From Hyaloperonospora brassicae (Eukaryota > Oomycota > Peronosporomycetes > Peronosporales > Peronosporaceae), in the NCBI GenBank assembly GCA_947650285.1, contig CANTFL010000389.1:434001-498000 (forward strand): a stretch of DNA of 64,000 nucleotides, given 5' to 3'. The notes beneath the pieces were generated by a model. That model saw only the letters and a program-made list of their open reading frames with translations, was not told the origin of the DNA and made no database searches. The first letter of the stretch is position 1; each line of letters starts with the position of its first letter. Below are positions 2,196 through 28,800 of this stretch, in pieces. Both the position numbers and the translations under genes were made by a program.

Positions 2196-3421
2196 CGAAA
2201 GATGGCAGTGCTCAATTGCATCCGATTCATTAGGCCTGTGCAGCTGGCAACTTGAGTGCAGTAAGGGCGTTGGTGCTGCAACTCGGCGTCGATGTGAACA
2301 CGTGCGATGCACGAAAACATCGCTCGCCGTTGCTCGTGGCCACGCAGGACGGACATCCGCTAGTTGTGCTGTTTTGCGTGCGAAACGGAGCTGATGTGAC
2401 GCTCGTGGACGTGGATGGAGGAGATACGGCTGTGCATTGGGCTCGAAAAGCGTAAGCTGTGCGATGCAGCGTCGAACATTGCGGCCTTTATGTGGTGGTG
2501 TGTGTGATGCAGGTAGCCGGGCGCCATACCACTTCACAGTGCTCAATGCGGTGATTATCTCGCTCTTGTATCTGTTTGTTGTGCTGCCAGCTATGCCAGA
2601 CAGACGCAATGTGATGGTGCCGCACCTGGTGTGGAATGCCGTGACGTGGTACTTTTTCTACCGCGCTGTGACCACCAGACCTGGAAGTGCTTGTGACGAC
2701 GATGAGAAGTATGCGATAGCGTACAATGAGGTCACAGAAGCCCTAATTCGCGGAAACGATGACGACGAAGAGGAAGACAAATGCGGAGAAAGTGTGAGCG
2801 TTCGTGCTCAGCGGGAATGCATCGAGCGCCCGCTGTGTCACACGTGCCACATTCAGCGACCGTTGCGCTCCAAGCACTGCCGGATTTGCAAGACATGTGT
2901 TCCCATTTTCGATCATCAGTGAGTAATGAGTAAATTGCCATTGCTGGAATGACTGACAAGTGCGATTGACGAAGCTGTGACTTGTATTCATGTAGCTGCC
3001 CATTTGTAAACAATTGCGTGGGTCGCGATAACTACGCAGCATTCCTGATCTTCGTCACTTTCCTAGCCGTGGACCTAGTTGGAATGGAGTACGTGCTGTA
3101 TCTACTTTGGCGTTATCATCAAGAGATGCGCGTCTTCGCAGTCTTGAGCATGATGTACCTCCTGCTGGTGCTGCTTCCAGTGGCTCAGCTGATGGTATTC
3201 ACATCTACCTCACGATCCGCAACAGCACCACAAACGAGTTGCTCGATGCAGATCGCTACCGTTTCTAGCGTGGTGGCGAAGTGCGCTCGTACGACCGCGG
3301 CCTGATCAAGAATGAGGACAAGCGCTGCTTTGGGCTTGCGAACGAACTGATAGATGATGATGATGACGCAGAGGCAAAAGTCAAGCTGATTGAAAAGCAG
3401 AGCAGCTCTCTTATCGTGTAG
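2196..3421 (+). pseudogene. ankyrin-DHHC palmitoyltransferase, left-arm broken copy
   Basis: This is the left copy of the ankyrin-repeat DHHC S-acyltransferase that is nearly intact at 40014-41912. Homology becomes clear at about 2196 in the ankyrin region; the N-terminal part is missing or beyond recognition. After an ankyrin repeat ending in AVHWA near 2443 about 245 bp present in the other copy are deleted, removing the last ankyrin repeats. The transmembrane pair, the Cys-rich domain (CHTCHIQRPLRSKHC at about 2836-2880) and the intron with its GTGAGT donor near 2921 are kept; splicing at the TAG acceptor near 2996 would regenerate DHHC. A missing T near 3199 (GTATTC against GTATTTC in the right copy) shifts the last exon. 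The stop codon is tail to tail with the M13 gene, about 52 bp away. It is almost certainly non-functional. Confidence 0.85.
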
Positions 3422-3473
3422 AACTAGCAGAAAGACCTACGGAACGACTCTCATCGTCTATACCGAAGAAAAT

Positions 3474-5834
3474 CTACCACAGCTGACACTTTGTCGTCGG
3501 GTTCATGCGTGAACCAGCAGGGCACGAGAAGACGCGTGCAAAGTCGTGTGAGTTGCTTGCAACACCATTGATGCGCCACTGGGCGGGCGAGTGCGGATCT
3601 GTCGCCAAGCTTCGAATCATGCTGGCGTCGCTCTCCTTTGAGCAAAACTCCTGGGCGAACGAGATGAAGAAGAGCTTGTCAGCCACGTCGGCAGGTAAAT
3701 CAGACTCGGTCTGGCTTCCTAAAACGGGTGTCGCTTCGCCTTTGTTGTTGACCTTGCTCAGTTTCTTGGCTTGCTTGGCGATGTAGGTTTGATACGCATG
3801 AAAGGACAGCTTCACGCCACCGTTGTCCGCAATATTCTCGCCCAAAGTGAAATTGCCGTTGACGTGACCCAGCACTTTGTCCTGATCCGCACCGCTGTTC
3901 ACTGCAAACGCATTGTACTGCTTCACGAGGCAGTCGGTCCGCTGTAAGAACTCCGTTGCTGTGCCATTGCTCCACCAGTCCTGCAAATTGCCGTCACCAT
4001 CGAAGAACCTTCCAGACGAATCGAAACCATGTGTGAGTTCGTGTCCCATGACGCTGCCAATCGCCCCAAAATTGCGTGCCGGGTGTTGCTCGCGGGAAAA
4101 AGATGGAGGTTGAAGAATGCCAGCAGGAAAGACGATCTGGTTAGTCGTTCGCTGGTAGTACGCGTTCACAGCAGCGCCCGTCATGGCCCATTCGTTGCGG
4201 TCTACCGGGCCACCGATCCGTGCCACAGCTCGATCAAATTCGTGCTCCCAGATGATCCGCACGTTTTCAACGAGTGGTGCCTCGCCGTGTAGTTCGTATG
4301 GAAAATGTTTGGACAGATTCGAGCACCCGATGCGGTTGGTCATGCTGCCCAACTTTTCGAGAGCACCTTGTCGAGTGGGTTCGTCCAGCCAGTCCACATG
4401 CATGAGACTTTTCTGCAGCGACGCTTGAATCTGTGTCACAAGCTGGTTGGCGAGTTGCTCACTAGCCTTATCGAAACGAAGAAGCGCGAAGTACTTGCCG
4501 GCCAAATCAGGAAAGTTGTCGATAATGCGCTGAAGACACACTTTCCATCGTGGAGCACGTGTCTTCTGACCCCGGAGCGTTTGCGCAAAGAAGGTAAAAG
4601 ACGCCTGGACGAAGGGCTCACTCAAGATGCTTGCATACGTGCTGATGTATTGATACGTAAGCACGGCTTTCAGAGTGTCGAGCGTCACCGAATCTCGAGT
4701 CACGAGCTCCTCAACACGCTGAAAGAACGAAGGCGTTCGGACAATCATACTAGCGTCCCGTGATACAAGGTCCTTCAGCATCCCCGTTCCATCCACGAAC
4801 TGTGCGAATAGTAACGGATACTCCTCAGCGGCTTGTGCCACACTCATGCGGTTGTACGATGCTACCGGATCCTGCAGCTTTTCTTTCGCTACGAACAACG
4901 GTGCAAGTGCTTGTTCAAACGCAATCACCAAGGAAGCTTGCGACGCTGCTTTATGCGACTTCCATCCGATCAGCGAAAACAATTCCACGACGTACGCATG
5001 GAAGGCGTCGCTAATCGAGTCAAACCGTTCGTGGTCCATGTAATACTGCGGGTCGGGCAGCGTAAGACCCGTCTGGGACGCGTACAATGCATACGTGGTC
5101 GCATCTTTAGCATCCGCCGCCACACCGAGCTGTGTCAAAAAAGACGTCCCTGCTCTCGACAAGTTGCCCGCCAGCTGAAACATTTCGCTTTTGCTCGTCG
5201 CAGCTGCGATCTGTTGGATCGCTGGCGACAAGAAAGCCACCGATACCGCGTCTACTGTCGCGCTGCTCGTGTTGCTGAAGTTCACGCACGAGTCGTACAG
5301 CTCGCCGACGAGGGGCCACCCTTGCTCCATCACTTCTCTCAGGACCTTCTCGTTCTCGTCGTGCACAGTGGAGAAGAATAGAGACATACTCGACTTTTGG
5401 TCGGGTATGTCGGTCTGTTGCAGCCACGATCCGCAACTAAAGGCGTAGAGATCGTCGCACGGGTCCACTTGCGTGTCCATATGGCTCACAACGTCTTGTG
5501 GCAGAAGCTGAATCCAATCGGCCGCGTCGGTGGTCGCGTCTCGCTCCTTCGTTTTTAAGGCCTGCACAGTGCCACCTCTGATGACGACGAAAACGACGGC
5601 GAGGAACAACATCCCCAGACTCCCGACGGCCCAGGCCGCTACGGGCTTTTGCTGCATGAAAAACGGCGGTGGGGTAGCAGCTGTACCGATCGGCTCGTCC
5701 TTCACCTCTTTGCGTTGTGAGAGTAGCTGCTCCTTGTCGTTTGGTGCCTGATGTTGCGCCAATGCGGCCTCATCGACGCCCACCGGAGCGTCTGCATCGT
5801 CTTCGCCGCGAACTTTCGTCCACTTCCACGCCAT
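3474..5834 (-). CDS. M13-family (neprilysin-like) membrane zinc metallopeptidase
   Basis: An intact 786-residue ORF. It encodes a type II membrane endopeptidase of the M13/neprilysin family, which cleaves peptides outside the cell or in the secretory lumen. A cytosolic N-terminus of about 65 residues is followed by one membrane segment (about 67-88) and the M13 N-terminal domain, starting near VDPCDDLYAFSCGSW. The substrate-binding motif is NAYYQ. The zinc site HELTH lies at 598-602 with its third ligand in GENIADNGG near 665-673. The C-terminus ends in the family's CxxW signature (CQLW). Length fits the family (700-790). No intron is needed. The gene faces the broken DHHC copy tail to tail. 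A second, damaged copy lies inverted at 37.8-39.96 kb, so this is probably the working copy. Confidence 0.93.
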   Translation of the reverse strand: MAWKWTKVRGEDDADAPVGVDEAALAQHQAPNDKEQLLSQRKEVKDEPIGTAATPPPFFMQQKPVAAWAVGSLGMLFLAVVFVVIRGGTVQALKTKERDATTDAADWIQLLPQDVVSHMDTQVDPCDDLYAFSCGSWLQQTDIPDQKSSMSLFFSTVHDENEKVLREVMEQGWPLVGELYDSCVNFSNTSSATVDAVSVAFLSPAIQQIAAATSKSEMFQLAGNLSRAGTSFLTQLGVAADAKDATTYALYASQTGLTLPDPQYYMDHERFDSISDAFHAYVVELFSLIGWKSHKAASQASLVIAFEQALAPLFVAKEKLQDPVASYNRMSVAQAAEEYPLLFAQFVDGTGMLKDLVSRDASMIVRTPSFFQRVEELVTRDSVTLDTLKAVLTYQYISTYASILSEPFVQASFTFFAQTLRGQKTRAPRWKVCLQRIIDNFPDLAGKYFALLRFDKASEQLANQLVTQIQASLQKSLMHVDWLDEPTRQGALEKLGSMTNRIGCSNLSKHFPYELHGEAPLVENVRIIWEHEFDRAVARIGGPVDRNEWAMTGAAVNAYYQRTTNQIVFPAGILQPPSFSREQHPARNFGAIGSVMGHELTHGFDSSGRFFDGDGNLQDWWSNGTATEFLQRTDCLVKQYNAFAVNSGADQDKVLGHVNGNFTLGENIADNGGVKLSFHAYQTYIAKQAKKLSKVNNKGEATPVLGSQTESDLPADVADKLFFISFAQEFCSKESDASMIRSLATDPHSPAQWRINGVASNSHDFARVFSCPAGSRMNPTTKCQLW

Positions 5835-7587
5835 TGAGACTAAGCAAATTTTGACAGGGGCTGATCACATGATCGGCGAAATCGATTTGATGCGACCAGT
5901 TTTTCCCCCTATTACAGTGAACTTCACCAGGTAGACCACAACTTGATGTTTCGAAAAGATTAGCCGCAATGATGCACAACTTCTAATTAAATTTGATCCC
6001 CTCTTATCGGTTATCAATTGCAAATGGAGGTTTCTAATTTAGCAATGGCTCTCAAAATCTTTAGGGAGCCGCTATTCACGGGAGAGGCGAAATACACTGG
6101 GCATTATTGCTAAATACACCACAGCATCAACCCATGAAACTTAATATTTTAATGACAGAGCAGTGTCACATTAAGACCACGTTAATTCGAATGTTACAAA
6201 ATCAACTAAGTAGAAATGCATTTGTAAGATAGCCACGTCAATTCAAAAAAAATCGTTCGTTGCCTAATGCATAATGATGAGCCCTTCATCCACCTCCACT
6301 ACTGCTGCTGCCACGGCCGTTGATGCTGATACTAATCCAGTCGTCGCTAAACAATCAGGCTACATTTCAAGTTGATGCTGTCCAGAACCCTGCCGCCGCT
6401 GATCTCTCGTGTATCTGTGAAGAATCTCCACCGGTCGGGCCTTTTGACAGTCAAAAGACGGCTGTGGAAGCTTTAAAGCAGTAGGCCGTACGCCAAGGCG
6501 CTTTGCTATAAATGTATCCCGCAGCCGTTTGATTGGTCCCAAGCGCAGTTTTTTCACATGTTAGCAGGAAAACATTTTAGGAGATCGCACAGTCGGCATT
6601 CAACAATGCGACACCGCAAAACAAAAAGGCCAGCTGTTCATACAAACTCGTGATCATTTCTGACAAACACGCCTTTGAAAGAATTGCTTGGTCAATGTTT
6701 CTTGTGGATACTGATACACCGGTCATTCCTCTTTGTATCAGCAAGACCATGCTCTCAGCGCCACCGGCGGCGCGACGTGCGACGCGAGAACTGACGATAT
6801 GAATTCTAAGGTCGTCCAGATGCATCAAGATGGAGATGCTCCACGAGTATGTGTGCGTGTTGAAGTCATATACAGCAGGCATTATCTATTTTTTTTGTCT
6901 ATATGTGATTATTATAGGTTATTGTTGACCAGTTTAAAAACGGGGGTGTCGTAATAAATGCAAAGGATGTCCATAATATCGTCCAGAAGGCAAGCAGAAA
7001 GGCAAGCAGAAAGGCATTTGTGGAAACTCACACACGGAAGCTCTGCTGCAGCACATGAAGGACTAGCATTATATATACTATTTCAGTGAACAAAAACGAT
7101 CGCGTTCGACACCTAGTTAAAATCTGACCAAGCACTTAACAAACAGTCGTCACGAGTTGGATGTGGGAGTAGAGCTTATCATTATGCAGTAGACAACGAA
7201 CGATTTTTTTGAATTGATGCGGCTATGTTACAGGTGCATTTCTACTTAGCTTATCCTGTAAGATTCGAATTGACGTGGCTGAACTTGATACCACTGTTTT
7301 CATATAAATAGGAAGTATAATGGATAGGAGCTGGTGAATTTAACAATGATGCCTGGTGTATTTAGCCTCTTCCGTTATTCACCACTCACTGTTCGCAAAC
7401 CCTACCACTCACCCTTCATTTAAAAAAAATTGTGATTGGCTGGTCAAATACTTAGAATTTAACAGGCTAACATTGATCTCGCTCGAGTTAAATAAGCGCT
7501 CTGTAGTATTACGCAAACACCACGTTTCTAACACTATATGCATCAGCGTGAACCTATTGCTTCACACTGGTCGTTGGTGCAGCCTCC
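5835..7587. other. gene-poor interval
   Basis: No gene is recognised. The only ORFs are about 100 codons or shorter, on both strands, without domain signatures. Composition is AT-richer than the flanking M13 gene. The stretch directly upstream of the M13 start (5835-5990) must hold its promoter; I see TCAAAATTTGC close to the start codon but no clear oomycete initiator match. Confidence 0.5.
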
Positions 7588-7868
7588 TTGGTAATAGGTA
7601 ATGTATGTAGCACCCCCACATCAATCAAGGAAACAGTGAAGTGTGGCCAAGAAAATGTCGAAGAGGAAATTTCATACAAACTGCGAGTTGTCCTTGATCA
7701 CCTAGATATGCTACTGGCAATGAAAGCTTTCAAGTCCAATGTCCGGGAAGGCCTCGGGCGTTCTATTGGTGATCTTGGACATCACCTGCTAGAAGCCAAT
7801 CGTATGGTTCTACTCAACGGGATTTATCGCCCTTTAACCGTTGTGATGAGTTTTTTGCGGCCTGAACG

Positions 7869-7873: not shown

Positions 7874-8318
7874 TATAGCGGTTTGCCCTTACACGAAAGT
7901 TACCATTGTGCGAAATGGTAATAAAGAATATTATGTGGAACATTCTTTTAGCAATACCACTAATTGTCGTGATATTGTTGAGAAGACCTAAAGGTCTACT
8001 TATTGGTTGATATTGTGATTATATCAACCCACCAATTGCTGCTAGTCGCGCGTAATGGGTGGTGAGTAATCGTCATCATACATGGTTTGGTATTAGTATA
8101 GTTAAGGCAAGACAAGACAAGAAGTAAGTAAGAGAACCATAACACTTACTATATCAATACAGTTTCACTTTTCCCCTCTACTAAACTAAGTTGTTTGGTT
8201 CTAGTCTTCCTCTTAGCGATACTATGTGCGCATGTTAACAAGAGCACTAGTCCACACTGCTTTTAGTGAGAACTTACTACACACTTCTACCAGTGTGTAA
8301 TTCCAGTTCTTCTTTACA
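7874..8318 (+). mobile_element. old solo LTR (Ty3/gypsy type)
   Basis: 445 bp related to the LTRs of the full element at 10776-18757, but heavily diverged. It starts TATAGCGG and ends TTTACA, eroded forms of TGTAACGG and CGTTACA. It keeps the landmarks AAAGAAT..ATTCTT, TTGGTTGATAT..ATATCAACCCACCAAT and a CGCG-AATG-GGTGGTGA block in the same order. A perfect CCGAA duplication flanks it. A hairpin with stem TTACCATT / AATGGTAA sits where the full element has a different hairpin. The internal region has been lost by LTR-LTR recombination. Confidence 0.8.
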
Positions 8319-8427
8319 CCGAAGCAGTAAGTGCAGGAAGCAGGACGCGAGGAAAGACGTGTCGTTTATTTTTTCAGTTCCCGCAGTGACTTCATTGCAT
8401 TTTATGCACTTGGTCGTAAGGACAAAT

Positions 8428-10066
8428 TGATGCACTTCGGTTTAAAAATGAATGGCCAGTCCCTGGACATGGTAGCGCTTGCGGAGAGTCAAACATAATT
8501 TAGTAAAACAAAAGCGCGTTTACATAAATGTCTATTTCTTGAACGATTCAATAAATCCGCGTAAAAGTTGCGCTTTTTTAATACAATATCTTTTATATAT
8601 ACATCAAGCCCATCGCAGCGCGAAATTATTATGTAGGTTTTTTTATAAAATGGAGGGTGAGCGGGAGTTAGCAAAAAGTGAGTGGTGAATTGCGACTCCC
8701 AAATTAATACGATACGTTTATTCACCTGACAAATTCAGCCTACATGTTAAATTAGGTTATGAAATCATTTGTTCCTGTCATTCTTTTACCCGTCAACTCG
8801 TTCTCAGTCGAAGCCTTTAGAATACGGAACGGCTTGTCATATCCGAAATTTATGTTCGTATTGAATATATCCCTGATAGTTTCGATTGCAATTGTAAATG
8901 CGCTACGCATCTAGCAAACAAGTTTCGATCCAAAAAATGTTTTCATTACGTGTTGTAAGGGAATTTGCACATTTACAAGAATAGGAGCAACAAGCGGCTG
9001 AGAGCACCATTTATATCCTGGTAAATGATCCGGTGAAATGTAGGGACTGCAATCAACCTTTCAATCGGTAGGGAGGCGTACAGGGTGAGAATAGTATGAA
9101 GCATCTTACTGATGAAGGCCGTGTGTACCGAGGTACTTCTGTGCCATGATCTTATCATACATTGGATTCGATAGTGAGGAATGTCACGTTAAATGTTACT
9201 CTTAGAACATTACAAAATACAGTAGTTATCTTTACTTACCGAAATTTCTACTCCTTCTTTGATGCAGAAAATGTTATCAAACGATTGGTCGCTGCACGAC
9301 ATGCGCATTGTGTGGCGAGAAGACGTCATATTTCAAGTTATCATAGTACATAATAAAATCAGGTCTAATCAATACAAGAGATCTATCAAATTTCGTTCAG
9401 TTTTACTTTTACTAATAAGTTCTATAGTTTATCCGGTTTGTAATTCTCTCTGTTTCGTGTACGTTAAATACCAAGCTACTGACCAATCTTGTTTTCTCGT
9501 AGACTTTGATCCGTAATGTTGTCATTACGTAGCCATCAGTACCCCTTTCAACCGTGCTGAGGACTCCATCATTACGTTTTTGTCTACCATCGGTAGGAGA
9601 ACATGATGATATAATCCTATATACCACTGAGCCCTTACATTTAAACAAGTAAGAGATACCTGAGGTATTCGCCAACATGGCACAGGCGCCGCCATCCATC
9701 TATTATGTAAGAGCCCGTGACATCTCTGGCCGAGGTCGTGGCCTCTCCCTCCCACGACCGATGTACGGACGTGAATGGTAGGAACCTCAACATGTTTATG
9801 GAACAGATTGTTTGCATTGAGCTCAAAGAAGCGTCATAGTTGAAAATAATCGAGGCCGAGCGGCCCCGACGCGCAACGGGGAGTAGTAAATTCACCTCTC
9901 CGCTCGGCCGTAACCAATGTAACGATGGACTGATGCATATGGATGCGCTAATATGCCTGAGCATCGAGGGGTTCAGTGGTGTACCAAGTGTAGAAACAAG
10001 CAAGGCAGCGTCCAACAGCATCCCCATAGAAAGAAACTTGTGTCGAAATGCTTGTTCCGTAATACG
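8428..10066. other. gene-poor interval
   Basis: Short ORFs only (longest 128 codons, minus strand, 9641-10027), no domain recognised. Bases 8430-9640 are AT-rich; 9640-10066 are more GC-rich and may be part of the DNA into which the next solo LTR inserted. Confidence 0.5.
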
Positions 10067-10770: not shown

Positions 10771-10775
10771 AGGAT
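10771..10775. repeat. target-site duplication AGGAT, left
   Basis: AGGAT directly before the 5' LTR, repeated exactly at 18758-18762 after the 3' LTR. This proves a single insertion event with both ends intact. Confidence 0.95.
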
Positions 10776-11166
10776 TGTAACGGGGCAGCCCGTTACATGG
10801 AATTGTCACTTTAAAGAAAGTGACAATAAAGAATATGAAGTGGAATATTCTTTGAACAATATCACCAAAGTGGTGATATTGCAGGGTCGACCAAAGAGTC
10901 TGTTCATTGGTTGATATCTTGATGATATCAACCCACCAATCGCCGCAAGACGCGCGCAATGAGTGGTGACGAGACGTCACCATACACTCAGTTATATTAG
11001 TATAATTAAGTTAAGTCAAACAGAGAGACAGTAGTTAAAAGACTTAATTATATTAATATAACAGTTCTGCTTTTACCTTACCTACGCTTCCTCGCTTGCG
11101 TTGTGTACGTCTGTCGGGGCACCGAAACCCTTGCGTTAAGTTCACGCAAGGGTGTGCCCCGTTACA
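10776..11166 (+). repeat. 5' LTR, 391 bp
   Basis: Starts TGTAACGGGGCA and ends with its reverse complement TGCCCCGTTACA, an unusually long 12-bp terminal inverted repeat. The first 22 bases themselves fold (TGTAACGGG, loop GCAG, CCCGTTACA). Further perfect stems follow: TTGTCACTTT (10803-10826), AATATCACCA with a 3-nt loop, GGTTGATATC, GGTGACG and CCCTTGCGT. A TATA-like AT-rich stretch lies near 10990-11060. Confidence 0.95.
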
Positions 11167-11168
11167 CC

Positions 11169-11180
11169 TGGTAGCACTTT
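11169..11180 (+). promoter_or_regulatory. primer binding site
   Basis: TGGTAGCAC begins two bases after the 5' LTR. It matches the start of the usual initiator-tRNA-Met primer site (TGGTAGCAG), so minus-strand DNA synthesis is probably primed by tRNA-iMet; the last base of that core differs. Confidence 0.65.
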
Positions 11181-11300
11181 GTAGTCCTTCCAAGGACCAC
11201 AACATCCAACATGAACATGTTGGATGATGAAGAGAACTTTCACGCCACGCGTGAAGGGTTTACCCATTTGAGTGACATCGAATGAGGTTCGGTAGAACGA

Positions 11301-12364
11301 ATGAGTTCTACCGTAGGCGAGTTCGCCATTAGCGCCATGTTGAAGTCTCTAGACAGAGACCAACAGCATGCCGCTATAGCCAAGTTCATTCAAAATGAAC
11401 TTGTCTGCGAAAGGGAGAAGGTAGCCTTGCTTCACCAGCAAGGCTCTCAACAGGCCGAGCAGTTGAGAGAACTCGGTGCTCAACAGACAGAGCTGTTGAG
11501 ACAGCAGCAATTCAATGCTGCTGTGGGCGGGACGGCACATGCGCGTCGTCCAGAAGTCATGAAAGTTGACATCTCCAAATACAGTGGAGTCCCGGAAGAC
11601 TTCCTCTTACTGTGGCTTGTCGAAATCGACAGAGCCTTAAGGTCTCGTCGCGTCGAAGATGAGCAAATGAAACTCACATTTGCTCAGACCCACTTGGCAG
11701 GGCGTGCAAAACTTAGTCCCTGGGACTCGAGAGTAGCGACCCAAATGTGTTTAGGTCGCTAGATGACTTCAAGTTCCGGCTCAGATAAACGTTTGAGCCG
11801 CCACAGGCTGAGTTCAGGGCTCGTTCAGAGCTCCTGAAACTCAAGCAGGGTAAGCGTGATGTGCACGCTTACGCACAACATATACGACTCCTTGCGAGTA
11901 GTATAACTGCTAACCCAGTACATGAACACACGTTGATTAAGGTGTTCATGCAAGAGCTCGCGGAAGGGCCCGTCAGGATCCACCTGTTCCGCCTTGAGCT
12001 GAATACGCTGATAGATGCGATATCAGCCGCGGAAGAGGAAGACGTTAGCATGATACCGGCTCATGCTAGCTCAAACTCTTATCGTCCACCAAGACGACAA
12101 GAGATCGGAGGTCCAGAACCAATGGACCTCTACTATGTTGAGAGCGAGAGACCTCGCTCTTCAAACAACAAGCGATTGCAGAAGTGCAATCGCTGTCAGA
12201 AGTTAGGGCACTACGCATACGAGTGTAGTGCTCCACGCCCAGTACCAAACAGTACTGAGAGAAATGGACGACCATTTGCCAGAAAGGGCAATGGGCGTGG
12301 GTCCAGCGCTGTTGCGAAGCCGCAACAGCGAGACGGACCATCAAAAAATGGTTGGGGTCAGTAG
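11301..12364 (+). pseudogene. Ty3 gag, broken
   Basis: Gag of the Ty3 element. The capsid-like part begins at ATG 11301 and includes a long helical, Gln/Glu-rich segment. The first frame closes near 11762; the continuation in another frame (11861-12364) shows a frameshift around 11700-11750 plus a TAA near 11789. The nucleocapsid zinc knuckle is intact: CNRCQKLGHYAYEC, spacing CX2CX4HX4C, at about 12187-12228, followed by an Arg/Gly-rich tail. The gag stop TAG (12362-12364) lies in the stem of an 8-bp hairpin, and pol resumes in another frame. Start choice is supported by distance from the primer site; the ATG sits in a hairpin loop. Confidence 0.85.
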
Positions 12365-12414
12365 GGGCGGAGCGCCCTACTGATCCAGCAACCTCAAGAT
12401 AATTTGCAAATCTC

Positions 12415-15400
12415 TTGACGAAAGTTGCTCCAGATACAAAATCATTGTGTGTCTCTGCACCTGATGATGACGTTTCGCTCATCACCTTGAAGTTGGAAGC
12501 GACAAATGATTTGTCCCTTTGCGCCCTAGTAGACTGTGGGGCGTCGAACAACTTTGTTCGTCGCCAGTCACTGGAGGGTCGTAGGCTCAAGTTCGTTGAG
12601 CGCGACATTCCCCCTCACGAGGATGACGGTGCGCCTTGCAACTGGCGCATCGATTACCGTTGAGAAACGTGTCGTAGGAATCCACTACACGTCAAAAGGC
12701 GAACAGTACGATGATGACTTCATCGTACTAGATCTGGATGACAAATTTGATGTCGTCCTGGGATTACCTAGGCTCAGAAAGTACGAGCCAAGGGTGAGCT
12801 GGCAGCATCGATCCGTGAAGATGCATTCCGCTTCTTCATCAGATGGCCGTCTGATGAACTTCTTGGGGCGTCCACAAGCGTGTGTATGTTCTTTGAGTGA
12901 GTGCGATGGCCTCAATTGCGGTACGGTCGTTAGCACGACTGCACAAGATCACAGTGTAGTTGATCACTACACTGTGGAGCAAGCTCCCGGCGGCTGTACA
13001 GAAGTACAGGCTGCGCCGAAGGCCCACCACTCGAATGAGTCGAGTGGACCGGGACATGGATGCATGCGTAGTGGGTAGCATATTAGACCGAAGAAACCTA
13101 TTGCCTCCAAAGAACAACATGAAAATCCTAGGTCGACTGGAAAGTCGGCCGTAGAGGGTCGGTGCCTGACTGTGGTTGCACAGCCACAGTCGGAAGACGT
13201 CGTGGGAATAAGTCCCAACATACTTGAGGAAGGAATTCCTCAAGAGTCATCTGCTGAGGGATCAGGCCCTCAGCAACCTGTAGAAGCAAGTTCCCAGGAA
13301 GAAACCGAGACTTTGAACGTCTTGGTTAATGACGGATCAAGCGTAGGCGCTTATACGCTTGATCTGATTGTGCCTCCAAAGTTAAATTTGGAGATAACTC
13401 AATTGCCAACGTTAGAACCTAAACGGTTCTTGCGTGATCTGCGTAGTGGCAAAGTCAAGCAGATCTGCATACTCGTCACAGAGGATGGGTATGTGGCCGA
13501 TATTCGGTCGGCTACAGTATTTGCTGAGAACGAACGGGTTCTCAGCAGCTCATCGATGGACGAAAGTGTCATCGATGAGAAGACTCGGATTGAGCGATAC
13601 ACGTCTCGATCCTGGGAGTCGCTTCAGGCAAATCCTTTGTATAAGGATTTGATCGAATTCAAGAATGTGTTCCCTGAATCCTTACCTTGCGAGTTGACTG
13701 AGGACAAAGGCACTCGACACGAGATTGAGCTCAAACCGGGCTCGAAGTACTGTGTCATGAAGCAGTGGCCACTGTCTCGTGAACAAGTACTAGCGATCGA
13801 CAAGTTCTTTGCCGATCACTTAGCAGCGGGCCATGTGAGGGAATCAACATCCCCTCACAGCTCTCCGACCTTCTGTGTGCCAAAGGCCACAGGAGGATGG
13901 CGGATAGTGCACGCATTCAACAAATTGAATGCTGCAACGGTACCGGCTCAGACGCCGATACCGAGAAAGGACGTCATCATAGATGGTATGTCAAAGAGTA
14001 CCATCTTTTCGCTCATGGATCTGATAGACGGATTCTATCAGATCCTTATGCGTGAACGGGACATCCCGTAAACAGCAGTGAGCACCCACAGCGGTATGCT
14101 GTGGGCGTAGCTAGCGATGGTACAGAGGCTGAGCAATGCCCCTGCAACGTCCAACAGATGTGTTACAAATCTGTTGAGACCGGTGCGAGACTTCGCACCG
14201 AGTTACTTCGACGATGTGTTCGTCCATAGCCGGGCTATGGACGTAAAGACGGACGTTGAAGTTCACAGAACTCACGTTCGTCAGGTTCTTCAACTTATGC
14301 GCAAGCATAAGTTGTACGCCAACCTCAAGAAGTGTATATTCGCGGCTAGCGAAATACCACTTCTTGGGTGCATCGTGGGTAAACACGGCGTACGCCCTGA
14401 TCCCGAAAAGATCAAGGCGATCACCGACTGGCCAGTGCCAGTCGATGTCAAGGAACTAAGAAAGTTCCTTGGTCTTGCGGAGTACTTGCACAAGTACTCG
14501 CGCAACTACGCTGAGATGACTGTTCATCTTTCTTGCTTGCTCTAGAAAAATGTCAAGTGGTCATGGAACGATGACTGTCAGCGTTCCTTTGAAGGTATCA
14601 AGCAAAGCTTGATGCAGTCGCCGATCTTGGCGATTGCAGATCAGGACAGACCATTTCATGTGGTCTGTGACGCCAGCGACTTTGCTATCGGCTGTGCGTT
14701 AATGCAGTTCGATGCAGATGGCGCGGAGCGCGTCATCTGTTATCAGTCGCGTCAGCTGCAAGCAGCTGAGCGTAATTACCCAGTGCATGACAAGGAACTC
14801 CTTGCCATGAAATACGCACTGGCTAAGTTTCGCGTCTATCTCTTGGGAGATAGACCTTTTGTTGTCTATACGGACAATGCGTCATTACGCACGGTCGTAA
14901 ACAGCCCACACCTCTCGCAAAGAATGGCGATGTGGCTGTCTTTCTTCGCGGAGTATAACTGCTCCGTGGAGTATAAACCAGGACGACTCAATGTCGTCGC
15001 TGATGCGCTTTCGCGCCGGCCCGATTTCGAGCCGGACGCACAAATCAACGGTGAGGATAAGCCCACTGTTGCGACACTGTCAGTCAGTGTACCGTCGTCA
15101 AGTTTACTTGACGACGTACGAAAGGCATACGCGGAAGATAAGGATCTTCTGCGATTGATGGATCATCTGGTGAATCCATCCAGTAAATCCATGAGGGATT
15201 TACCGGCTTTGTACCGATCCTCCTCGGATCGATATAGTACACGCAACGGATTGCTGTACTATACAGCTGTTGCCGACGACACGCCTCGTGTCGTCGTACC
15301 CGCTCATCATCGTTTGCGTTTACGCATCATGTATGAGTGTCACGATGCCCCAACAAGCGGCCATCGTAGTAGAGGAAAGACTCACCTCACGACAAGTCGT

Positions 15401-17259
15401 GACTTTTACTGGCCACGCCAGTATCAGTTTGTCCGCAAGTACATACGTGCTTGTGAGGTTTGTCAACGAGTAAAGCCTAGTCCTTCATCCCGTGCGCCAT
15501 TGCAGCCTCTGCCTGTTCCGACAGAGTGCTGGCAGTCCGTTTCAATGGACTTCGTCTTCGGTTTTCCCGAAGACGCTCACAAGAATAACGGTATTCTTGT
15601 GTTTGTTGACCGATTCAGCAAGATGGTCCATATTGATGCAGTCCCTGAGTCGATCAAGGCTCAAGGTTGTGCTCGTGTCTTTGTCGACACGGTCTTTAGA
15701 CTCCACGGGTTACACCGTGAACTCGTATCCGACCGTGACCCTCGGTTCACGGCGGCATTTTGTCAAAGCGTGTTCCGTACTCTCGGAACACGACTGAAGA
15801 TGTCTACTTCTGACCATCCCGAAAGAGATGGTCAGACGGAACGTGCGAACCGTGTCCTCGAAGAGATCCTTCGAGGATATGTCCACTCGTTTTCGAGTTG
15901 GAGCGAATTCATACCCATGGTGGAATTCGCCATCAATAATTCGGTGCATGCTTCCACACAGCACACACCGTTTTACGTGAATGGCCTACGCCATCCACGT
16001 GTGCTTACCCTTCTAGAGTGTCACTCTTGGTTAAGGGGGGAGGGACTCGCTCGAGCAAAAACCGTTCTGGCTCTTGCTCATCACGTGTCGACGCTAACGT
16101 CGTCACGTATGATGCCGATGTCGATCAAGTCGACATCGATGAAGAAAATCGCCTCAATAATAGCGATGACGCTATTATTGACTCGGATGATGATGACGAT
16201 GCTGGTATATTCAGCATCGCCAACGATTATGTCAGCGAGGAAGAAGACAACCTCGCTGAAAAAGAGAGTAATCTCTTAGCAGTGCGCACGAAGCGCACTG
16301 AAAGACAAAACAAAGAGTCAGCAGAGAATTTCCTGCTGACTCGAGAAGCGGTAGTCCGTTTCGTTCAGGACTCCATCGCAAATGCGGTGAACCGTCAGAA
16401 ACGGAACGCAGAAAAGAATGGAAGAGCAAATGTTCTTTCATTTAAAGTTAATGACCTAGTACTACTGTCTACGGTAAACTTACCTGGAGATGCAGTCACT
16501 AGTGTCGAAAGTAGTAAACTACTGCCGAAATACATTGAGCCATTTCGAGTGTTGCATCGCAAGGGCAATGCATACAAACTCGAATTGTCACGTAAGATGC
16601 GCACGCATCCTACGCTTTACGTGGGGAGGCTCAGGCCGTACTGTCAGTACGAGACTTCTTCTTCCGATGAAGATAGCCCCCACGTTCAAGAACATCCATC
16701 AAGTTCTTCCGCTCGCGCTCCAGACGATCTGTCTGGTTGCGCAGATATGATACCTCGGAACTCAACCGAGATATCTCCCCGCGAGCTGTCGCCAGCTCGC
16801 CGTAAAGAGAGCGGAAATCCCGCTCGACCTGAAGCTGCGCTGTGGCATAATCGGCGCGATCCCTCGCCCGATCGGCCTCGTGACCCTTGCGGTTCTTCTG
16901 CACGGTATCGGTCAAAGCGTAGCGCCGGTCGCGCTCGTGCTTCAAGTCATCGCGCAATTCATCGATTGCGCGATCCATCTCGTAAGGGTCGAGATGGTGA
17001 GCCGAATCATCTGGAGGAGGTCTTTACTCCTCCACCACATCCTTTGGTGGATGCTCACGGTGTTCAACGCTTTCTAGTGGAGCGTATCTTGAATCACCGT
17101 GACGATTCAGGATCAAGGACGAGCTACCTCGTCCAGTGGCGGGGGTATCCATCTTCTTAGAACATCTGGGAGCCCCGCTCTCAGCTGATGATGGATGTGC
17201 CTGGTCTCGTCCGTCAGTATGACGAGACCCATCCGATGAGTCCTGTGGCCCATCGGTAA
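12415..17259 (+). pseudogene. Ty3 pol (protease-RT-RNase H-integrase-chromodomain), broken
   Basis: Polyprotein of the Ty3 element. Protease: ALVDCGASNNF near 12523-12555, with DCGA where DTGA or DSGA is usual. Reverse transcriptase: about 13650-14545 with YFDD near 14200. RNase H: HVVCDASDF, a YPVHDKELLAM segment and a YTDNASLR segment (14650-15010). Integrase: an H2C2 zinc finger (CEVCQ near 15450) and DDE core with MDFVF, SDRDPRF and DGQTERAN (15545-15855), then a GPY/F-like module (LYVGRLRPY near 16616). The chromodomain (FLVERIL..YLVQWRGY) spans about 17065-17230. Breaks: a frameshift near 12620, stops at 13076, 14069, near 14108, 14543 and 17158 (inside the chromodomain), and a frameshift at the G6 run 16035-16040. 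A copy without these breaks would be needed for movement in trans. Confidence 0.9.
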
Positions 17260-18235
17260 ACATGCGCTTTTGGCGCTTGTAGACGTACTGCAAGTTTGCA
17301 ATCGCGTCACGCATCTCAGCCGAGATGTGTGCCCTCCCCCAGGGCGAATCTAGGGAATACACGTCCCTATGTGCACGCTGCGAGTTGTCAGCACAACTCG
17401 CACAAGGGTCTCCCCATGTGAGGCAAGGAATGCCTGCCTCACTTGATAAACAGTGCAACCGGTACCTAGCACCGGTTGGCGTTCGCTTTTCGAACCTGAG
17501 GCGTGTCGCCTCAAGTTTCTTGAGCCACCCTTCTCGTCCAAATTTATTTACTTTTTGGATAAACGCGTTCCACGCAGCCAAAAGCGATGCTTTGTCACGC
17601 TTTTGGTTGCTATTGTACCATCGATGTCTAAGAAAGACATCGAGATAAAATTCTTCCTCAGCGCGAAAGTTGCTAGCTCTGGGATCCAAGCCGTGAAGCT
17701 CAGTCGCATCAAATAAGGGTATTCGATGGTGTTGGCTTGCCTCATGAGACAAGCTATTGATGAGCCGTTCGGGCAAACGCCACGGCTTCAGATCATCACG
17801 CTTCACAGTGGTACCCTTGTCGGTACCACGGTTGTCAGTATGACGATGGGTTGAACCATCGTTAAGTCGCTCGTGCGAAGGAGCACGAGCTAATTGCGGT
17901 GATGAGCAAACATAATCATCATCCGATTCGTCATCGATGCCGAACAGAATGTGTTGCAACTCACGAGTCCGTTCGTTTGGCAGTGGCCTTGGCGAACACT
18001 GAGGCGTCGCCGGTGAGCGAGACGCCTCTGGCGCATTGCCCGAGTCAGACACGTCTGACTCGCCAGAATAGATGACCTCTACGTCGAGGTCATCATGTGC
18101 ACGCGGTGAGGTGCCGCGTGCACCTGAAGCACCTGTTGCTGCAGGCGAAGAAGGAGCAGCAGAAGACGAATCGTCTGCCGCAGAGGCTGGCACAGCACCG
18201 GGCTGTGTGGGTCTTGAGTCACCTCGCATAGACAT
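16631..18235 (-). CDS. antisense ORF between pol and 3' LTR, with coiled-coil extension
   Basis: An intact 403-codon ORF runs on the minus strand from ATG 18235 to TAA 17024. The same frame stays open after that stop to 16631, giving about 535 codons interrupted once. The N-terminal 120 residues are Ser/Ala/Pro and acid-rich. The middle (about 150-300) looks globular, with a WNAFIQKVNKFGREGWLKKLE helix, a RFEKRTPTGARYRLHCL segment and a small Cys cluster (CLTWGDPCASC). The part past the stop is a strongly charged heptad-like helix (ERDRRYALTD through RLERERKNL), a likely coiled coil. It overlaps the sense chromodomain and the linker before it. The function is unknown. Capsid-like, regulatory or chance antisense ORF are all possible; its length and helix quality argue against chance. 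Confidence 0.6.
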
Positions 18236-18354
18236 GTTAACTATGCGAGGTCAAGCGGGAAGTGAATGGAACGGACCCAACAAGTGCTCCCTGTCCCAAT
18301 GGAGACCAACGGGTTGCCGCCATAATTTCGATAGTCACACGGTGACTATCCGTT

Positions 18355-18363
18355 AAGGGGGGG
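18355..18363 (+). promoter_or_regulatory. polypurine tract
   Basis: AAGGGGGGG ends three bases before the 3' LTR. It is the expected primer for plus-strand synthesis and lies just after a 9-bp hairpin (18330-18350). Confidence 0.8.
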
Positions 18364-18366
18364 TGA

Positions 18367-18757
18367 TGTAACGGGGCAGCCCGTTACATGGAATTGTCAC
18401 TTTAAGGAAAGTGACAATAAAGAATATGAAGTGGAATATTCTTTGAACAATATCACCAAAGTGGTGATATTGATGGGTCGATCAAAGAGTCTGTTCATTG
18501 GTTGATATCTTGATGATATCAACCCACCAATCGCCGCAAGACGCGCACAATGAGTGGTGACGAGACGCCACCATACACTCAGTTATATTAGCATAATTAA
18601 GTTAAGTCAAACAGAGAGACAGTAGTTAAAAGTCTTAGTTATATTAATATAACAGTTCTGCTTTTACCTTACCTACGCTTCCTCGCTTGCGTTGTGTACG
18701 TCTGTCGGGGCACCGAAACCCTTGCGTTAAGTTCAAGCAAGGGTGTGCCCCGTTACA
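18367..18757 (+). repeat. 3' LTR, 391 bp
   Basis: Same length and ends as the 5' LTR. About 10 substitutions separate the two by hand alignment; one falls in the loop of the second hairpin (aaag against aagg) and leaves its stem intact. The AGGAT duplication follows at 18758-18762. Confidence 0.95.
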
Positions 18758-18762
18758 AGGAT

Positions 18763-22830: not shown

Positions 22831-25800
22831 ATTACTCGCTTTTGGATGAGAAAAGTGGCATAATGCGACTGACGTCATTTGTTTTTACTAGTACCTGATC
22901 GTGTAGACTGTTCGTACTGCTACTACCAGATAGAAAGGTAGGAAATTACATGGTGGAGACTGCGTGAAGCATTTACCTGACTGAGGCTGTGCAAATGATT
23001 CTGTAACTTCATTTTTCCTACTGATAGTACGCAAAACGTAAAGATTGAACTCTTTTTACCACTCAGCTTTTTATTCTAAGCGACATCCACTTCCCCCTGT
23101 ACCCAGACTTGCCGAATCACGCAAGATGTACTATGAACCGTATGTGTGTTGCGGTCTGGTGCCCAACTTACGTCTCGTTTCGTTGTGCTGGCTTGGCAAA
23201 TTCGTAACAGACTTGGGAGATGTTGGCCTCCCATAGATTGTTGCTCGCTGTTAGGATAAATTAATGTAGCGATTTTGTAGCGCATCGGCCTTGACGACCC
23301 GGATATTCTGTCAGCCTTGATACGAGATCCTCTAAACTGTCTTGAATTTGTCTTTTTATGATTTTTCTGAAATATTGCCCAATGACCACTTGGAAAGACT
23401 TTCTATTACCATTTTGGTGTAAGCCAGATCGTTCTCTTACTATTTACTACTAAACCCAAGTAGCTTGTCAATTTCAGTAGTAGTAGAGTCTTGGTTTGAG
23501 TTGCAGTCAACACATCGTAGCCGAGTAATCTAGGGAAAAGTGCTTAGATATAGGCGTGGTCGAGCCTCTTGGTCTTTGGCAGGCCTACGATCCTTCTCAG
23601 AAAAGACGTCTGAGACGAACCCTACACAAATAGTGGAAAAACTATCACTATGTCGATACTACCCTGCATAACACAACGCATGTCGATATCATCTTCTTAA
23701 AGCTCTTCCCTTTGGCACTTGCATTGCGTAAAAAGTTTTGCCGACCTTCATACCATGTTCAGCTAAATGCAAACTTGTGCGAAAAAGTCTGAATGTCGTG
23801 TGGATGATAAAATAGTTGGTGCATGGTCTCATTTTTTGTAATTATATCTCAATATTGTTTTAATACTTATTGCTGTGCCAAATCTCGTACATTCGACTTT
23901 CTCGCGTAATTATAAAGGCCTGTCACTAGTTCTTTTGGTCCGAAAACGTGAGCAATTGTGGTCACCTTTCTTCTCAGATTACCATTAAATGTACGCGATT
24001 GCGTCACAGATAAACCATGACATCGAACGCTAATGACAAATACGTTCCATTTATCCCATTTTGTATATAAACCTACAATTTACCCTCGAAATGCTCAATG
24101 TAAGCTTCTTGCACATCCACTGGGGCATACGTAGGTCCTTGAATTGGGTATTGCAAATGTATGCAACCCTTTCGGACCCCAGGTTGGGGTTCAAATTATC
24201 AAACTTGGTACCAACGGGTTGAGATCGCAACCCCTCTATCTCTAACGGTGAAGTTTTGTCATGGGGTTGCGACGGGGCTTTATAGAATTGCGATAAGTAT
24301 CTCCCATAAGTGTCTCCGTAAGCATGTAAATACATACCGTGATTCTCTTAAGCCATACATAATCCACTATCCAAAAGCCGTTATGACAGATCGGTTACGA
24401 TAGATAAGGGCAACCGATCTCGCATGGAATTCATTCTGTCTTGATCCTACCATCCATCGTAATTCAAACATGTGCTAATGTCCAAAAAGTATCAAATCCA
24501 TCAACCCATCCTTCGAAGTATCATGTTTTGTTATTTGTATGTATGAGTCCACGTGATGATTTCAACTTTATTAGGTCAATTTCTAGTCCCAGATTGGAAC
24601 AATTCTGCTTAGTTGCCACCTGTCGTCACACGATCGATTGTATAATCCTATAATTTCGATTTTTTGCGACATGAATCTGGTCCGCTTCCCGCATTAGGAT
24701 TGTAGCGTTTTACTTTCGATTTTCGTACAGGCTCACCACACAACATCAAACCTAACAAGCGTCACATGTAGATTAGAGTATCGAAAATAGGTATGTTCGA
24801 GATGGCATGAAGCGACAAGCTTTGTGCTAAATTATTTTCGATCTTAGCGTGAGGGGTCTGAAATTGCACTGAGATCAATCATGACTTTATCCGCCGTCTG
24901 TTTGCAATTATCGGATGGTTTACGAGTGCTCATTGATTATATATTCAACAATAAAGCCTAGAAATAAGTAGTTAAACACGCCATTAGACTTGATAAGCAC
25001 CTCACTCTCATAGATCTTTGTAACCTGTTTGACTTGTCTGCTGACCGGATGAACTCATACGTTCCGATTGTAACTTATATTTGAATGTTACTATTTCAGC
25101 TTAACTAGGTGATTATTAGATGGCATCAATGAAGTCCCTAATAATGCTGACGTCGATATTCGGAAAAAAGTCAAGTTACTTAGCTAGTTATGGATGCGAC
25201 ACGATGCCAAGACACAATATTTCGTCCGGTCTTTACGGCGTTTATAAATCCATTGAAATGGGGTGGGACTTTTACAGGTATTGAACACTCGATAGGGTCA
25301 ATTAAAAACAGGATTTAATTGATGATGACCATCCATATGCACCTTAATAAGTACCCATATGTAGGAATGTCACCATACAAGGCAATATTTAGCATCCCTC
25401 CATTTCATGATAAATGTAGAATATTGTATCATATAAGTAAACCACCGATCGGTGCATCACGCGCGTTCTATAGGTAGTAAGCGGGTGGCCCCATGTAGAT
25501 TTGTACGTAAGTATAGCAAAATCTATATTGAACGAAGTTTCACAGAGACATGCATATATATCGTATATTTTTAATCAATAGTCTCATTCTACTAAGCTTT
25601 GTCGTTAGAGGGACCAATTTTATCCGATCTACGTGCAGTTTACCGTAATTTGCGGCTCACCACCTACACTTTGTTATTGAGGGTAGCTTGTATTATGTCA
25701 GTACAAGCGGATACAGACCGTTGTAAGCAGGTCGGGTCAATATGCACAAACCGAACGGTCTATCTTTCGACAAAAGCTTTTTATTATCGCGTTCGAGCTG

Positions 25801-28800
25801 TATTTCAAGTTCTATGACATAGTTTTTCCTTTATACATTTAGTGTTGCAAAGATTATGGGATAAATAATTTTTATTGATAAATGTTATCTACCATCAAGA
25901 TATTATAGTTTATGAACAAGCCTAAATATATAACGAAAAATCAGTAATTCTGCAACCATATAATGCTAGCAGCCATATCTAAAACAACATATACTAGGCT
26001 GCAAAGAATGTTTGTAGAAGTAGAAGAAGATTTATGGTAACCCAGTCTCATATTATTACGCGCAAGATGTCTGAAATGTATCAGGATGCTAGTGCCGGGT
26101 TGGTACAACTTTTCGTGCGTGACCGCCAGATAACCAAGTGTCGTTTAACAAACTTGTATCAAATTAAGTAGAGCGAGAGGTTAGTACGGCTTTGTTTACC
26201 GCTGCATGTCCTGTCCTGCTCTTTCCTTCTGCGAAAGAGTTTGGGTAGATAAGTTTTGTACCTAAACTTATATAGACGCTGGTAGCTCAAAAAGTCATGC
26301 ATTTTTGAAGCATTAATGATTTGTATTCTGGTCACAAACATACTAAATCGAAGCGATTTTGCAATAAAACGATGCGTTTACCTTCAGTCTTTGCTGGTTT
26401 AGCGTTGTAAATCGTTAATAGCGTAGCATGGGACGCTGAGCAGGTATTGTTGTAGCCTAACTATCAGTACAGCAGCGTTTTCTTCGGATACAACTTGCCA
26501 GTCCTTTTCTCCATCAGAATATTACACAGGAGATTTCCCCCACCACTCTAACGACGATGATTTTATCCCAGAAAATGTGTGTAACTTCTGCTTGCACACT
26601 TTGCAGTGCACATTTGTATCACCGTATTTGTTAAATGAACAGCATTACATACACTAAGCTACTGGGACGCTATGTCATTACATGTCACGCTTATTGATCG
26701 TTTATTTTATTGGTGTTATCTCGTAGTCAGAAAGGCAGATCATGAAATAACACAGTATATCCAGAAGTACCGCTTCGTTAGGTCGGGTGAGAAGAGGCCG
26801 CAAGTCTAGGCTGATTCAGACGTTTTTGATGCTTAAATGGTTGATATGACTTTCAATGCTTACCCTGACGTTGTACACATATTTTAGCACAAATTCCGAA
26901 GATTATTGATTATTAAAATGCTTTATAACCAAATACGCCGCATCTTCTTCATAAATTAGGTGCTATGTGATTTTTGCTAGCTCAATTACTCAGGCTTACC
27001 GCCGAGAAATATTCTATGTGTTCCATACAATCTCTGCTAACGCTATTTTTTACCTTGTAATTAACTTATCTCGGTCACATCTTGTCCTGACAAATAAATC
27101 GGAGACGATTCGCTCCTACTAAACGGCAAACTGAAGTGGCGGCGCGTGACGTGACATGAGTTTAACTTGCCAACCTTAATGCTGAATAGTAATATGTAAA
27201 GACGCGGCAGCATGGGCCAGTCGAAGGATGCACAGAGTTGCGTGTGATGTGGGTAGCCTGTACAAAGATTATATATCGCCATTACATTATCGTCGGCATT
27301 TTTCATTTACGATGAAGACTTCGTATCTTGTATAGCTATAGTCGGCTGTATTTAAATCGCGTTAGCACCTTGACATTATGTATTTATATACTAAACAATT
27401 CACTAAAGTAGAAGTGTATCCGGACAAATTAATTACCTAGCTGGGGTATTGATGCATCATTTAGTCCATTAAATGGATGTGCTATTATACAACCCAGTTC
27501 TAGCCTTCCCACCAGCTAATTGGCAAACGAAGTAGCTTACCGGGTTGCGATGTCGAGCTAGCGTATATTATCATCTCTTGTTTGAAAGTGAGCGACACGA
27601 AGTCCTATCGGTAATATACCAACTAAATTGCGCAGACCTCCGTTTCGGTACAATTGCCACTGATTGTTCCGGGTATTGCGCGGTGCCAATTAAACGCAGC
27701 GAGCGTGCGCCCCTACAATTGAAACCCCACTAGGCTAAACTTCTTCTTCCGATACTTGCGTGAAATACCTTAATGCACTTTTGCCTGCTGAGCTTAAAAT
27801 GACAAAAATATGAGGTATGATATATCAACCCTTTCTACTGCGGTGAGCCAAACTTACGCAACAAACCTTGCGTTGGACATCTCATTTAGTATGGCGTGTG
27901 CACAAGACAATTTCTTGTACAACGTAGGTAGCTATATCTTGACAAACGACGGAACATCGTAAGTGGAAGCTACAATCGCGGTTTTTTGTAGAAAATGATA
28001 ACATAAAGAGCAAAATTCGATATAAAATTCGGTTACGCTTTTTGTTCCATATATGAATGTCTACGGATGTTACGGATGTAAATGCCTTATTTTAATCTAG
28101 CAAGTTATTGGCTCCACTTCGCTGCCCACTTATGCTTTCGTCTCGGCTGATTACAGCATTACATCTTCGCCTTATCCTTATAAATTCACACCGCTATGTT
28201 GAGTAAATAAACTTTATATATGTGGGTGTAAAGACACGATAGATCCCCAAGTTTGTGACAAGTTTGAGTGCTAAATTTAGTTGACCTGCCCGCCTACAAA
28301 GTAGTATCAATTGACGCGAATACAGTGTGCTTCGCTTTTGTAGCGCCAGGTACCGGGACAAGTGGCGCATGTCTAAATTATGCCAAAATTATGCCAAATG
28401 ATTATTATCAGAGGTGTCACTACTAACAGAGAAGCAGTAGTGCCATGGAACGCCTCGTCATATCTAGGATGGCACAAATTAGGAGTGTCTATCATTGACA
28501 ACGTACCCGCTCCGTCCTTCCAATATGAATATTTTTGATGATTTATTGTTTAACTTTAAAGTTGATACAGCGTCAGAGCATTAACACAAACACTTTATAC
28601 ACCAGTACAACGTCTTCAACAATCGACAAGAACCATGACATGACGATATCGTGCAATAATACGCACGGTCTCATGCGACGATGTTAGTTGTACTAGCACC
28701 ATCTATAATAGCGAAGAATACGGTTTTATACTAACTACTCCCCTAACTTCAGTATATAATTACTTTTGGTGGTAACCACTACCGCTGTGAAGCAAGCTTC

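Follow-up and report, generated by a model that had tools for sequence, protein, structure and literature searches.

A chain of short perfect hairpins in a Ty3/gypsy retrotransposon of Hyaloperonospora brassicae and its counterparts of different geometry in related families

The stretch analysed here, called the window, comprises 64,000 nucleotides of the Hyaloperonospora brassicae genome (contig CANTFL010000389.1, positions 434,001 to 498,000), and coordinates are given in it unless stated otherwise. At 10776–18757 it carries a Ty3/gypsy retrotransposon of the chromodomain branch, through whose long terminal repeats (LTRs) and coding frames runs a dense series of short perfect hairpins; both the class of the element and this distribution had been recognized in an initial annotation and were confirmed. 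The reading frames are broken in this copy, and the LTRs (10776–11166 and 18367–18757), with ends of the TG...CA type, are 97.4% identical. The element consists of the following parts (ORF, open reading frame):

10776..18757, plus strand: hairpin-bearing Ty3/gypsy element with 90 perfect inverted repeats (stem 8–12, loop 2–13)
10771..10775, no strand: target-site duplication AGGAT, 5 bp, left copy
10776..11166, plus strand: 5′ LTR, 391 bp, with the ends TGTAACGGGG...CCCCGTTACA and 7 hairpins
11861..12364, plus strand: gag fragment with a CCHC zinc knuckle, scoring just under the families' cut-offs
14609..16279, plus strand: pol fragment with RNase H, integrase H2C2 and rve (just below cut-off)
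16018..17160, plus strand: pol C-terminal fragment with a Tf2-1-like SH3 and the first half of a chromodomain
17024..18235, minus strand: antisense ORF of 403 aa, in which third-codon-position substitutions predominate
18367..18757, plus strand: 3′ LTR, 391 bp, with 5 hairpins wholly within it
18758..18762, no strand: target-site duplication AGGAT, 5 bp, right copy

The chromodomain (PF00385, positions 2–28 of 53) scored above cut-off at the end of 16018–17160, and none was detected in the scanned pieces of a second, younger copy, L074, which stop earlier. The LTR termini TGTAACGGGG...CCCCGTTACA form a 10-bp inverted repeat, which far exceeds the usual TG...CA. The closest named proteins to the element's pol come from Peronospora effusa (81%), followed by Phytophthora and Globisporangium, and a search of viral contigs for relatives of the element found none. 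At least 39 other copies with 96–98% identity over a 1-kb probe occur elsewhere in the genome (40 of the 1985 candidate matches were scored). The window copy is decayed, whereas L074 has an intact pol frame of 1339 codons, whose three scanned pieces follow the order protease (RVP_2), reverse transcriptase (RVT_1) with RNase H, and integrase (H2C2 and rve). The window copy and L074 represent family A; families B–E and Z and the elements L077 and L079 were sampled for comparison, all from the same genome.

Hairpins were defined as perfect inverted repeats with a stem of at least 8 bp and a loop of 2–15 nt, and the whole of 10776–18757 was scanned. The scan found 90 of them, all with loops of at most 13 nt, against a mean of 1.2 in 10 mononucleotide shuffles. 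For stems of at least 9 bp the numbers were 59 against 0.5, and for at least 10 bp 32 against 0.0; the feature is stronger than originally estimated, at more than 60 hairpins where 1–2 are expected. The 5′ LTR holds 7 of the 90, the leader and gag 17, pol 46, the 3′ portion that includes the antisense ORF 14 and the 3′ LTR 5, and one spans the edge of the 3′ LTR. This corresponds to about one hairpin per 70–90 bases, and a fixed spacing could be rejected, the coefficient of variation of centre spacing being 0.87 in the window copy, not far from random. The base pairs next to the outer stem ends were at chance level (62 other, 14 G-U, 13 A-C). Fourteen hairpins had previously been named individually; all exist, and four of them turned out to be longer than described, namely 16154–16181 (12 bp) and 12950–12976, 15093–15116 and 18221–18251 (11 bp each). 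The most prominent hairpins, none of which is assigned to a strand, are as follows (stem/loop):

10802..10827: LTR hairpin 11/4
10857..10881: LTR hairpin 11/3
11203..11226: leader hairpin 11/2
11381..11403: gag hairpin 10/3, with compensated changes in family C (L071)
12171..12194: hairpin 10/4
12307..12330: hairpin 10/4
12705..12729: hairpin 10/5
12950..12976: hairpin 11/5
13335..13364: hairpin 11/8
14017..14045: hairpin 12/5
14291..14314: hairpin 10/4
14480..14499: hairpin 9/2, found only in the window copy among 31, where one substitution completed an imperfect stem
15093..15116: hairpin 11/2
15274..15296: hairpin 10/3
15578..15601: hairpin 10/4
16154..16181: pol hairpin 12/4, at which B and C differ from A by four compensated pairs
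16315..16342: hairpin 10/8
18041..18062: hairpin 10/2
18097..18123: hairpin 10/7
18221..18251: hairpin 11/9

The rest of the window is sparse in such structures, with 9 hairpins in the 44 kb of 20001–64000 and a single one in 1–7800, and the control stretch 24001–36000 contained 3 stems of at least 8 bp where about 1.5 are expected (loops 2–9), values that do not depart much, if at all, from background. A few hairpins lie in 7900–10000, one of them within a related LTR fragment (7920–8122, about 78% identical), which is located about 2.7 kb upstream of the element. Two copia elements taken from elsewhere in the genome had no hairpin in 3 kb each, in line with the earlier statement that the decayed copia element of the window and sampled host genes lack the feature. 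Short direct repeats were not enriched, 6 being present in the element and 4 and 4 in two control stretches. The decay of the window copy is reflected in its 42 hairpins over 4 kb, compared with 47–54 in nine other copies.

The intact copy L074 has 108 hairpins in 7.9 kb, and 33% of its sequence lies in perfect hairpins. Its pol frame contains 55, while 300 protein-preserving codon shuffles, the control proposed in the initial annotation, gave 1.23 ± 1.12 with a maximum of 4 per shuffle. The excess is thus independent of codon use, and the idea that synonymous choice accommodates the hairpins was borne out. The excess is local, being strong for loops up to about 17 nt and lesser up to about 60 nt. 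The hairpin span in L074 (24.5 ± 3.0 nt) is close to the 25-nt small-RNA class. As a general rule, a match of span to small-RNA size was rejected, since the commonest hairpin of family Z measures 13 nt, and the match is suggestive for A at most; the folding effect in L074 rises continuously as the window is enlarged and does not peak at 21 or 25. The pol stems of L074 fall into the three codon registers in the proportion 24/23/8 of 55, pairing of third positions with each other being avoided, as if synonymous sites served to fit constrained ones. This bias did not recur in Z, L078, L077 and L079, and a general codon register or phase was discarded.

Comparison with other Ty3 families, also suggested at the outset, revealed that the trait is wider and has other stem lengths elsewhere. 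The near families C (L071), B (L072), D (L075) and E (L076), which are 76–83% identical to two A copies, have 64, 61, 30 and 29 hairpins, respectively, of which 48, 46, 23 and 24 are positioned as in L074. L077 and L079 (61% and 59% protein identity to A) contain 17 and 12 hairpins per 3 kb with stems of 8–10 bp. In family Z (L073, L078; 54–59% identity to A) stems of at least 8 bp are almost absent (2 in 7.9 kb), and there are 157 stems of exactly 5 bp with loops of 2–9 nt against 39 expected, including 62 with a 5-bp stem and a 3-nt loop against 6. This 5/3 design was likewise beyond the reach of codon shuffling, occurring 36 times in the Z frame against 5.4 (maximum 11 in 100 shuffles) and 33 times in the L078 frame against 2.8. 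When stems were extended, their number dropped roughly as chance pairing past 5 bp in Z and only after 10 bp in A. Hairpin places were compared by counting in the protein columns common to A, Z, L078, L077 and L079. Those of A, Z and L077 coincide at chance level only, while places are common within Z/L078 (48 against 12.3 expected) and L077/L079 (3 against 0.6); places in L079 exceeded expectation non-significantly with respect to A (3 against 1.4), Z (5 against 2.3) and L078 (5 against 2.5). Considering the chance-level coincidence and the differing designs, we concluded that the hairpin trait arose or was rebuilt several times, each time with a family-specific geometry.

Whether the hairpins are maintained was judged from their loss between families. 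Stems defined from L074 alone are biased towards conservation, and were replaced by the union of stems, by stems taken from a third family and by neutral simulation. L074 keeps 40 of the 64 hairpins of C, 40 of the 61 of B, 18 of the 30 of D and 21 of the 29 of E, where the simulation at the branch length of A predicted about 22–30% for C and B and 13–21% for D and E. Conversely, C keeps 40 of the 108 hairpins of A, compared with 13–21% under neutrality. With 60–72% kept against a neutral prediction of about 13–30%, the A lineage retains hairpins beyond neutral decay. The branch ratios of nonsynonymous to synonymous change (dN/dS) were about 0.2 for A and C, 0.38 for B, 0.42 for D and 0.53 for E, and the frames of A and C are under protein constraint. 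The C copy L071 has LTRs of 99.5% identity and broken frames on a branch that is still protein-constrained (dN/dS about 0.22); it moved recently, perhaps via the proteins of a relative.

Third codon positions change 0.5–0.7 times as often in stems as outside. Between L074 and C, with stems taken from D/E, differences were found at 18 of 118 third positions in stems, 204 of 729 outside and 15 of 41 in loops, and between L074 and D, with stems from B/C, at 42/255, 203/773 and 32/87, respectively. D and E showed little contrast (86/345 in stems, 216/765 outside). With a two-sided stem definition Z and L078 differed at 58/314 positions in stems and 169/631 elsewhere (p=0.005), and the comparison of Z with two close copies gave no significant stem effect (18/315 versus 37/632 and 15/316 versus 45/631); the differences in this second case are taken to have arisen mostly after insertion. 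In L074 stems, double changes restored pairing in 33 of 48 cases against C, 24 of 33 against B, 23 of 40 against D and 21 of 50 against E, a count to be read with the caveat that paired transitions alone also restore pairing.

Folding was predicted in 200-nt windows and compared with dinucleotide shuffles. In L074 the two strands had nearly the same mean z (sense −7.2, antisense −7.1), and the mean energy was −83.7 against −56.7 kcal/mol, an excess of about 48%, the corresponding values being 33% in L071 and 16% in L073. The sense and antisense z values were −4.7 and −4.8 in C, −2.4 and −2.6 in Z, and between −1.3 and −1.9 in L077 and L079, and those of copia and host sequence were around 0. 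Thus, the predicted folding is equal on both strands. G-U pairs make up 5–6% of all pairs in L074 versus 13% in host sequence, and the 9-bp windows of L074 lean mildly to G-U (38 against 23 A-C). Loops are enriched in purines on the sense strand in L074 (0.578 versus 0.511), are not enriched in D (0.456) and L079 (0.493), and are T-rich in Z, whose closing pairs are preferentially C-G on the inner and G-C on the outer side (93 and 91 of 208). Antisense transcripts are plausible, at least at the 3′ end of the element, because the antisense ORF at 17024–18235 behaves like a gene: its substitution rates by codon position are 0.074/0.084/0.153, and an open frame of 492 codons in L074 matches it with 83.5% identity across 401 aa. 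The ORF gave no Pfam match, yet it has the appearance of a genuine antisense gene. Family Z has in a similar place its own antisense open frame of 437 codons (L073 938–2248, plus strand, antisense to the element), and no similarity was found between this frame and the antisense ORF of A.

Taken together, we give an even chance to the explanation that selection has moulded the entire sequence of the element, in the LTRs as well as in the coding frames, into a series of short local hairpins, the acting force probably being selection on the element's own nucleic acids. What is kept would be the density of perfect Watson–Crick stems of a family-specific length (8–10 bp here, 5 bp in Z), and neither particular sequences nor places, as hairpins turn over, loops are free to vary and distant families carry theirs at other sites. 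For the purpose of such a chain, escape from silencing seems the likeliest proposal, yet it is the weakest part of the explanation. Transcripts of either strand would fold immediately and remain paired locally, in duplexes shorter than Dicer requires, and this local pairing could leave fewer long sense–antisense duplexes and weaken the binding of small-RNA guides. Hairpins alike on both strands would also hinder sense–antisense annealing, and guides derived from either strand would themselves fold. In Phytophthora infestans the small RNAs that map along Gypsy elements come from both strands, according to parts of one report (PMC3522703), and passages of another attribute the 25-nt small RNAs of Phytophthora mainly to transposable elements (PMC3804510). 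It is conceivable, though we regard it as doubtful, that Ty3 families independently evolved hairpin codes that yield poor silencing guides or a shape-based mark of self; the same doubt applies to the details of such a code, namely a set stem and loop length, strict Watson–Crick pairing and an equal effect on both strands.

Several observations speak against this explanation. Single stem changes to G-U (244) hardly outnumbered those to A-C (230) in five comparisons that all share L074, stems with one mismatch contained G-U less often (50) than A-C (74) in six related copies, and the one-mismatch 5/3 stems of Z showed no G-U excess (12 against 14 expected), such stems being hardly in excess at all (A-C 9 against 10, other 54 against 45). 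The composition of loops implies opposite strands in A and Z, and D differs from A. Since a selected sense RNA should clearly favour G-U and does not do so, Watson–Crick pairing on both strands appears to count, and selection may act on both strands or on DNA. A pure sense-RNA structure is accordingly not supported, the wobble test being negative or weak and the antisense strand folding equally well. Selection for structure, as proposed in the initial annotation, is supported by the retention beyond neutral decay and the conserved third positions of stems, and its plain sense-RNA form is not. Retention itself is uneven. B keeps 40 of the 108 hairpins of A where neutrality predicts 22–33%, and D and E keep 18 and 21 of 108, about the neutral rate; such loss despite constrained coding frames argues that the chain is not essential. 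Among the 31 A copies aligned (41 loci minus two with less than 90% identity, six that gave no match and two duplicates), stems defined without bias are only mildly less variable than the outside, with singletons at 0.155 versus 0.182 and variants of frequency 4 and above at 0.024 versus 0.038 (0.066 in loops). Moreover, just about a third of the element lies in perfect hairpins, and the hairpins of Z are small. As to silencing, parts of PMC3804510 rank inverted repeats first in potency among the sources of 21-nt small RNAs in P. infestans, these repeats being taken as much longer than the present hairpins, and parts of PMC3522703 report more 21-nt than 25-nt RNAs from its LTR elements.

That the excess reflects chance, composition, codon use or an assembly artefact can be practically dismissed, because mononucleotide and protein-preserving codon shuffles exclude the first three, and the hairpins are consistent in 31 copies on many contigs, whereas no such excess occurs in two copia elements or in the remainder of the window, which were assembled alike. 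Inverted repeats that are perfect, short and strand-symmetric also result from quasi-palindrome correction by template switching, and a mutational origin of this kind is one rival explanation: if the reverse transcriptase of the element repeatedly used one arm of a near-palindrome as the template for the other, perfect hairpins would accumulate by mutation pressure, bounded only by the tolerance of the protein. The perfection and strand symmetry of the stems, their abrupt ends with flanking pairs at chance, the hairpins of the non-coding parts and three single-copy changes that restore the pair at mismatch sites are all in keeping with it, and an enzyme specific to a clade would account for clade-specific geometry. 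However, 18 mismatched stem positions remain unrepaired in all but 0–2 of the 31 copies, and of nine hairpins present in a single copy eight need one stem substitution and one needs two, with no block copy. Differences between arms are no more lopsided than in control windows and, if anything, are spread more evenly, and single changes outnumber compensated doubles (77 versus 13 pairs between L074 and C, stems from D/E). The lack of both general mismatch repair and arm replacement led us to prefer selection, and to consider fold-back synthesis, which the initial annotation had put forward as a possible cause, quite unlikely.

If selection acts, it could act on other properties than silencing. 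Selection on DNA, in which hairpins or cruciforms matter in the single-stranded complementary DNA or the integrated copy, would agree with the strand symmetry, the nearly strict Watson–Crick pairing and the closing-pair preference of Z (C-G inside, G-C outside), while mismatch spectra cannot separate DNA from RNA of both strands. We know of no need of such elements for DNA hairpins, which weighs against this possibility, and we rate it as very unlikely. The main alternative to the silencing idea is a family-specific packaging mark: the Gag/nucleocapsid or the reverse transcriptase of each family might prefer one hairpin size, so that the hairpins serve as a family shape tag in packaging or assembly. 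Against it, there is no clear preference for G-U over A-C, folding is just as good on the antisense strand, the loop composition of D and Z points in the opposite direction and no loop motif was seen; we rate packaging signals as unlikely too.

Hairpin families with differing sizes and places provide natural replicates of an experiment on selection for the shape of nucleic acids, and whether hairpin-armoured families escape silencing is a question that can be tested on oomycete small-RNA data. The findings bear on the neutrality of "synonymous" change in mobile elements and on the dating of insertions by such sites. If the hairpin-code reading were true, it would reveal selection on retrotransposon sequence at a new level, in addition to that on the proteins, and if the cause were mutational, a palindrome-writing polymerase would be revealed.

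Among known systems, quasi-palindrome template switching resembles the chain in its perfect, short and strand-symmetric inverted repeats, but its block changes of arms and general mismatch repair were not found here. The dispersed packaging signals of single-stranded RNA phages and viruses are similar in consisting of many short hairpins along the genome; they share a loop motif and tolerate G-U, whereas the Ty3 chain showed neither a common motif nor such tolerance. Among the literature matches listed, judged by titles and the openings of abstracts, no such chain was described in a retrotransposon, which is not proof of absence. The genomic RNA of yeast Ty3, probed by SHAPE-MaP (selective 2′-hydroxyl acylation analysed by primer extension and mutational profiling), is likewise a Ty3/gypsy RNA with defined hairpins, but passages of that report present discrete functional hairpins and a structured 5′ end rather than a chain of perfect hairpins (PMC11381356), and the terms "synonymous", "z-score" and "GORS" are absent from its text. 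The closest precedent is the genome-scale ordered RNA structure (GORS) of RNA viruses. As parts of PMC3950689 set out, GORS is a structure of the whole genome, coding frames included, with short duplexes mostly above 8 bp and never over 11, which is not conserved between the genera of a family and is linked to escape from innate sensing. The present case differs in that the host of the structure is an LTR retrotransposon, the pairing is local, strand-symmetric and nearly strictly Watson–Crick, and the stem length varies by Ty3 family. The 3% folding threshold for GORS given in the same parts of PMC3950689 is exceeded by L074, L071 and L073, and the folding excess of L074 (about 48%) compares with 16.0% at the top of the viral panel described there, obtained with other settings. 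What appears to be new is a GORS-like structure in another class of element, strand-symmetric, with a family-specific stem length and, allowing for the different settings, a folding excess well above the viral value.

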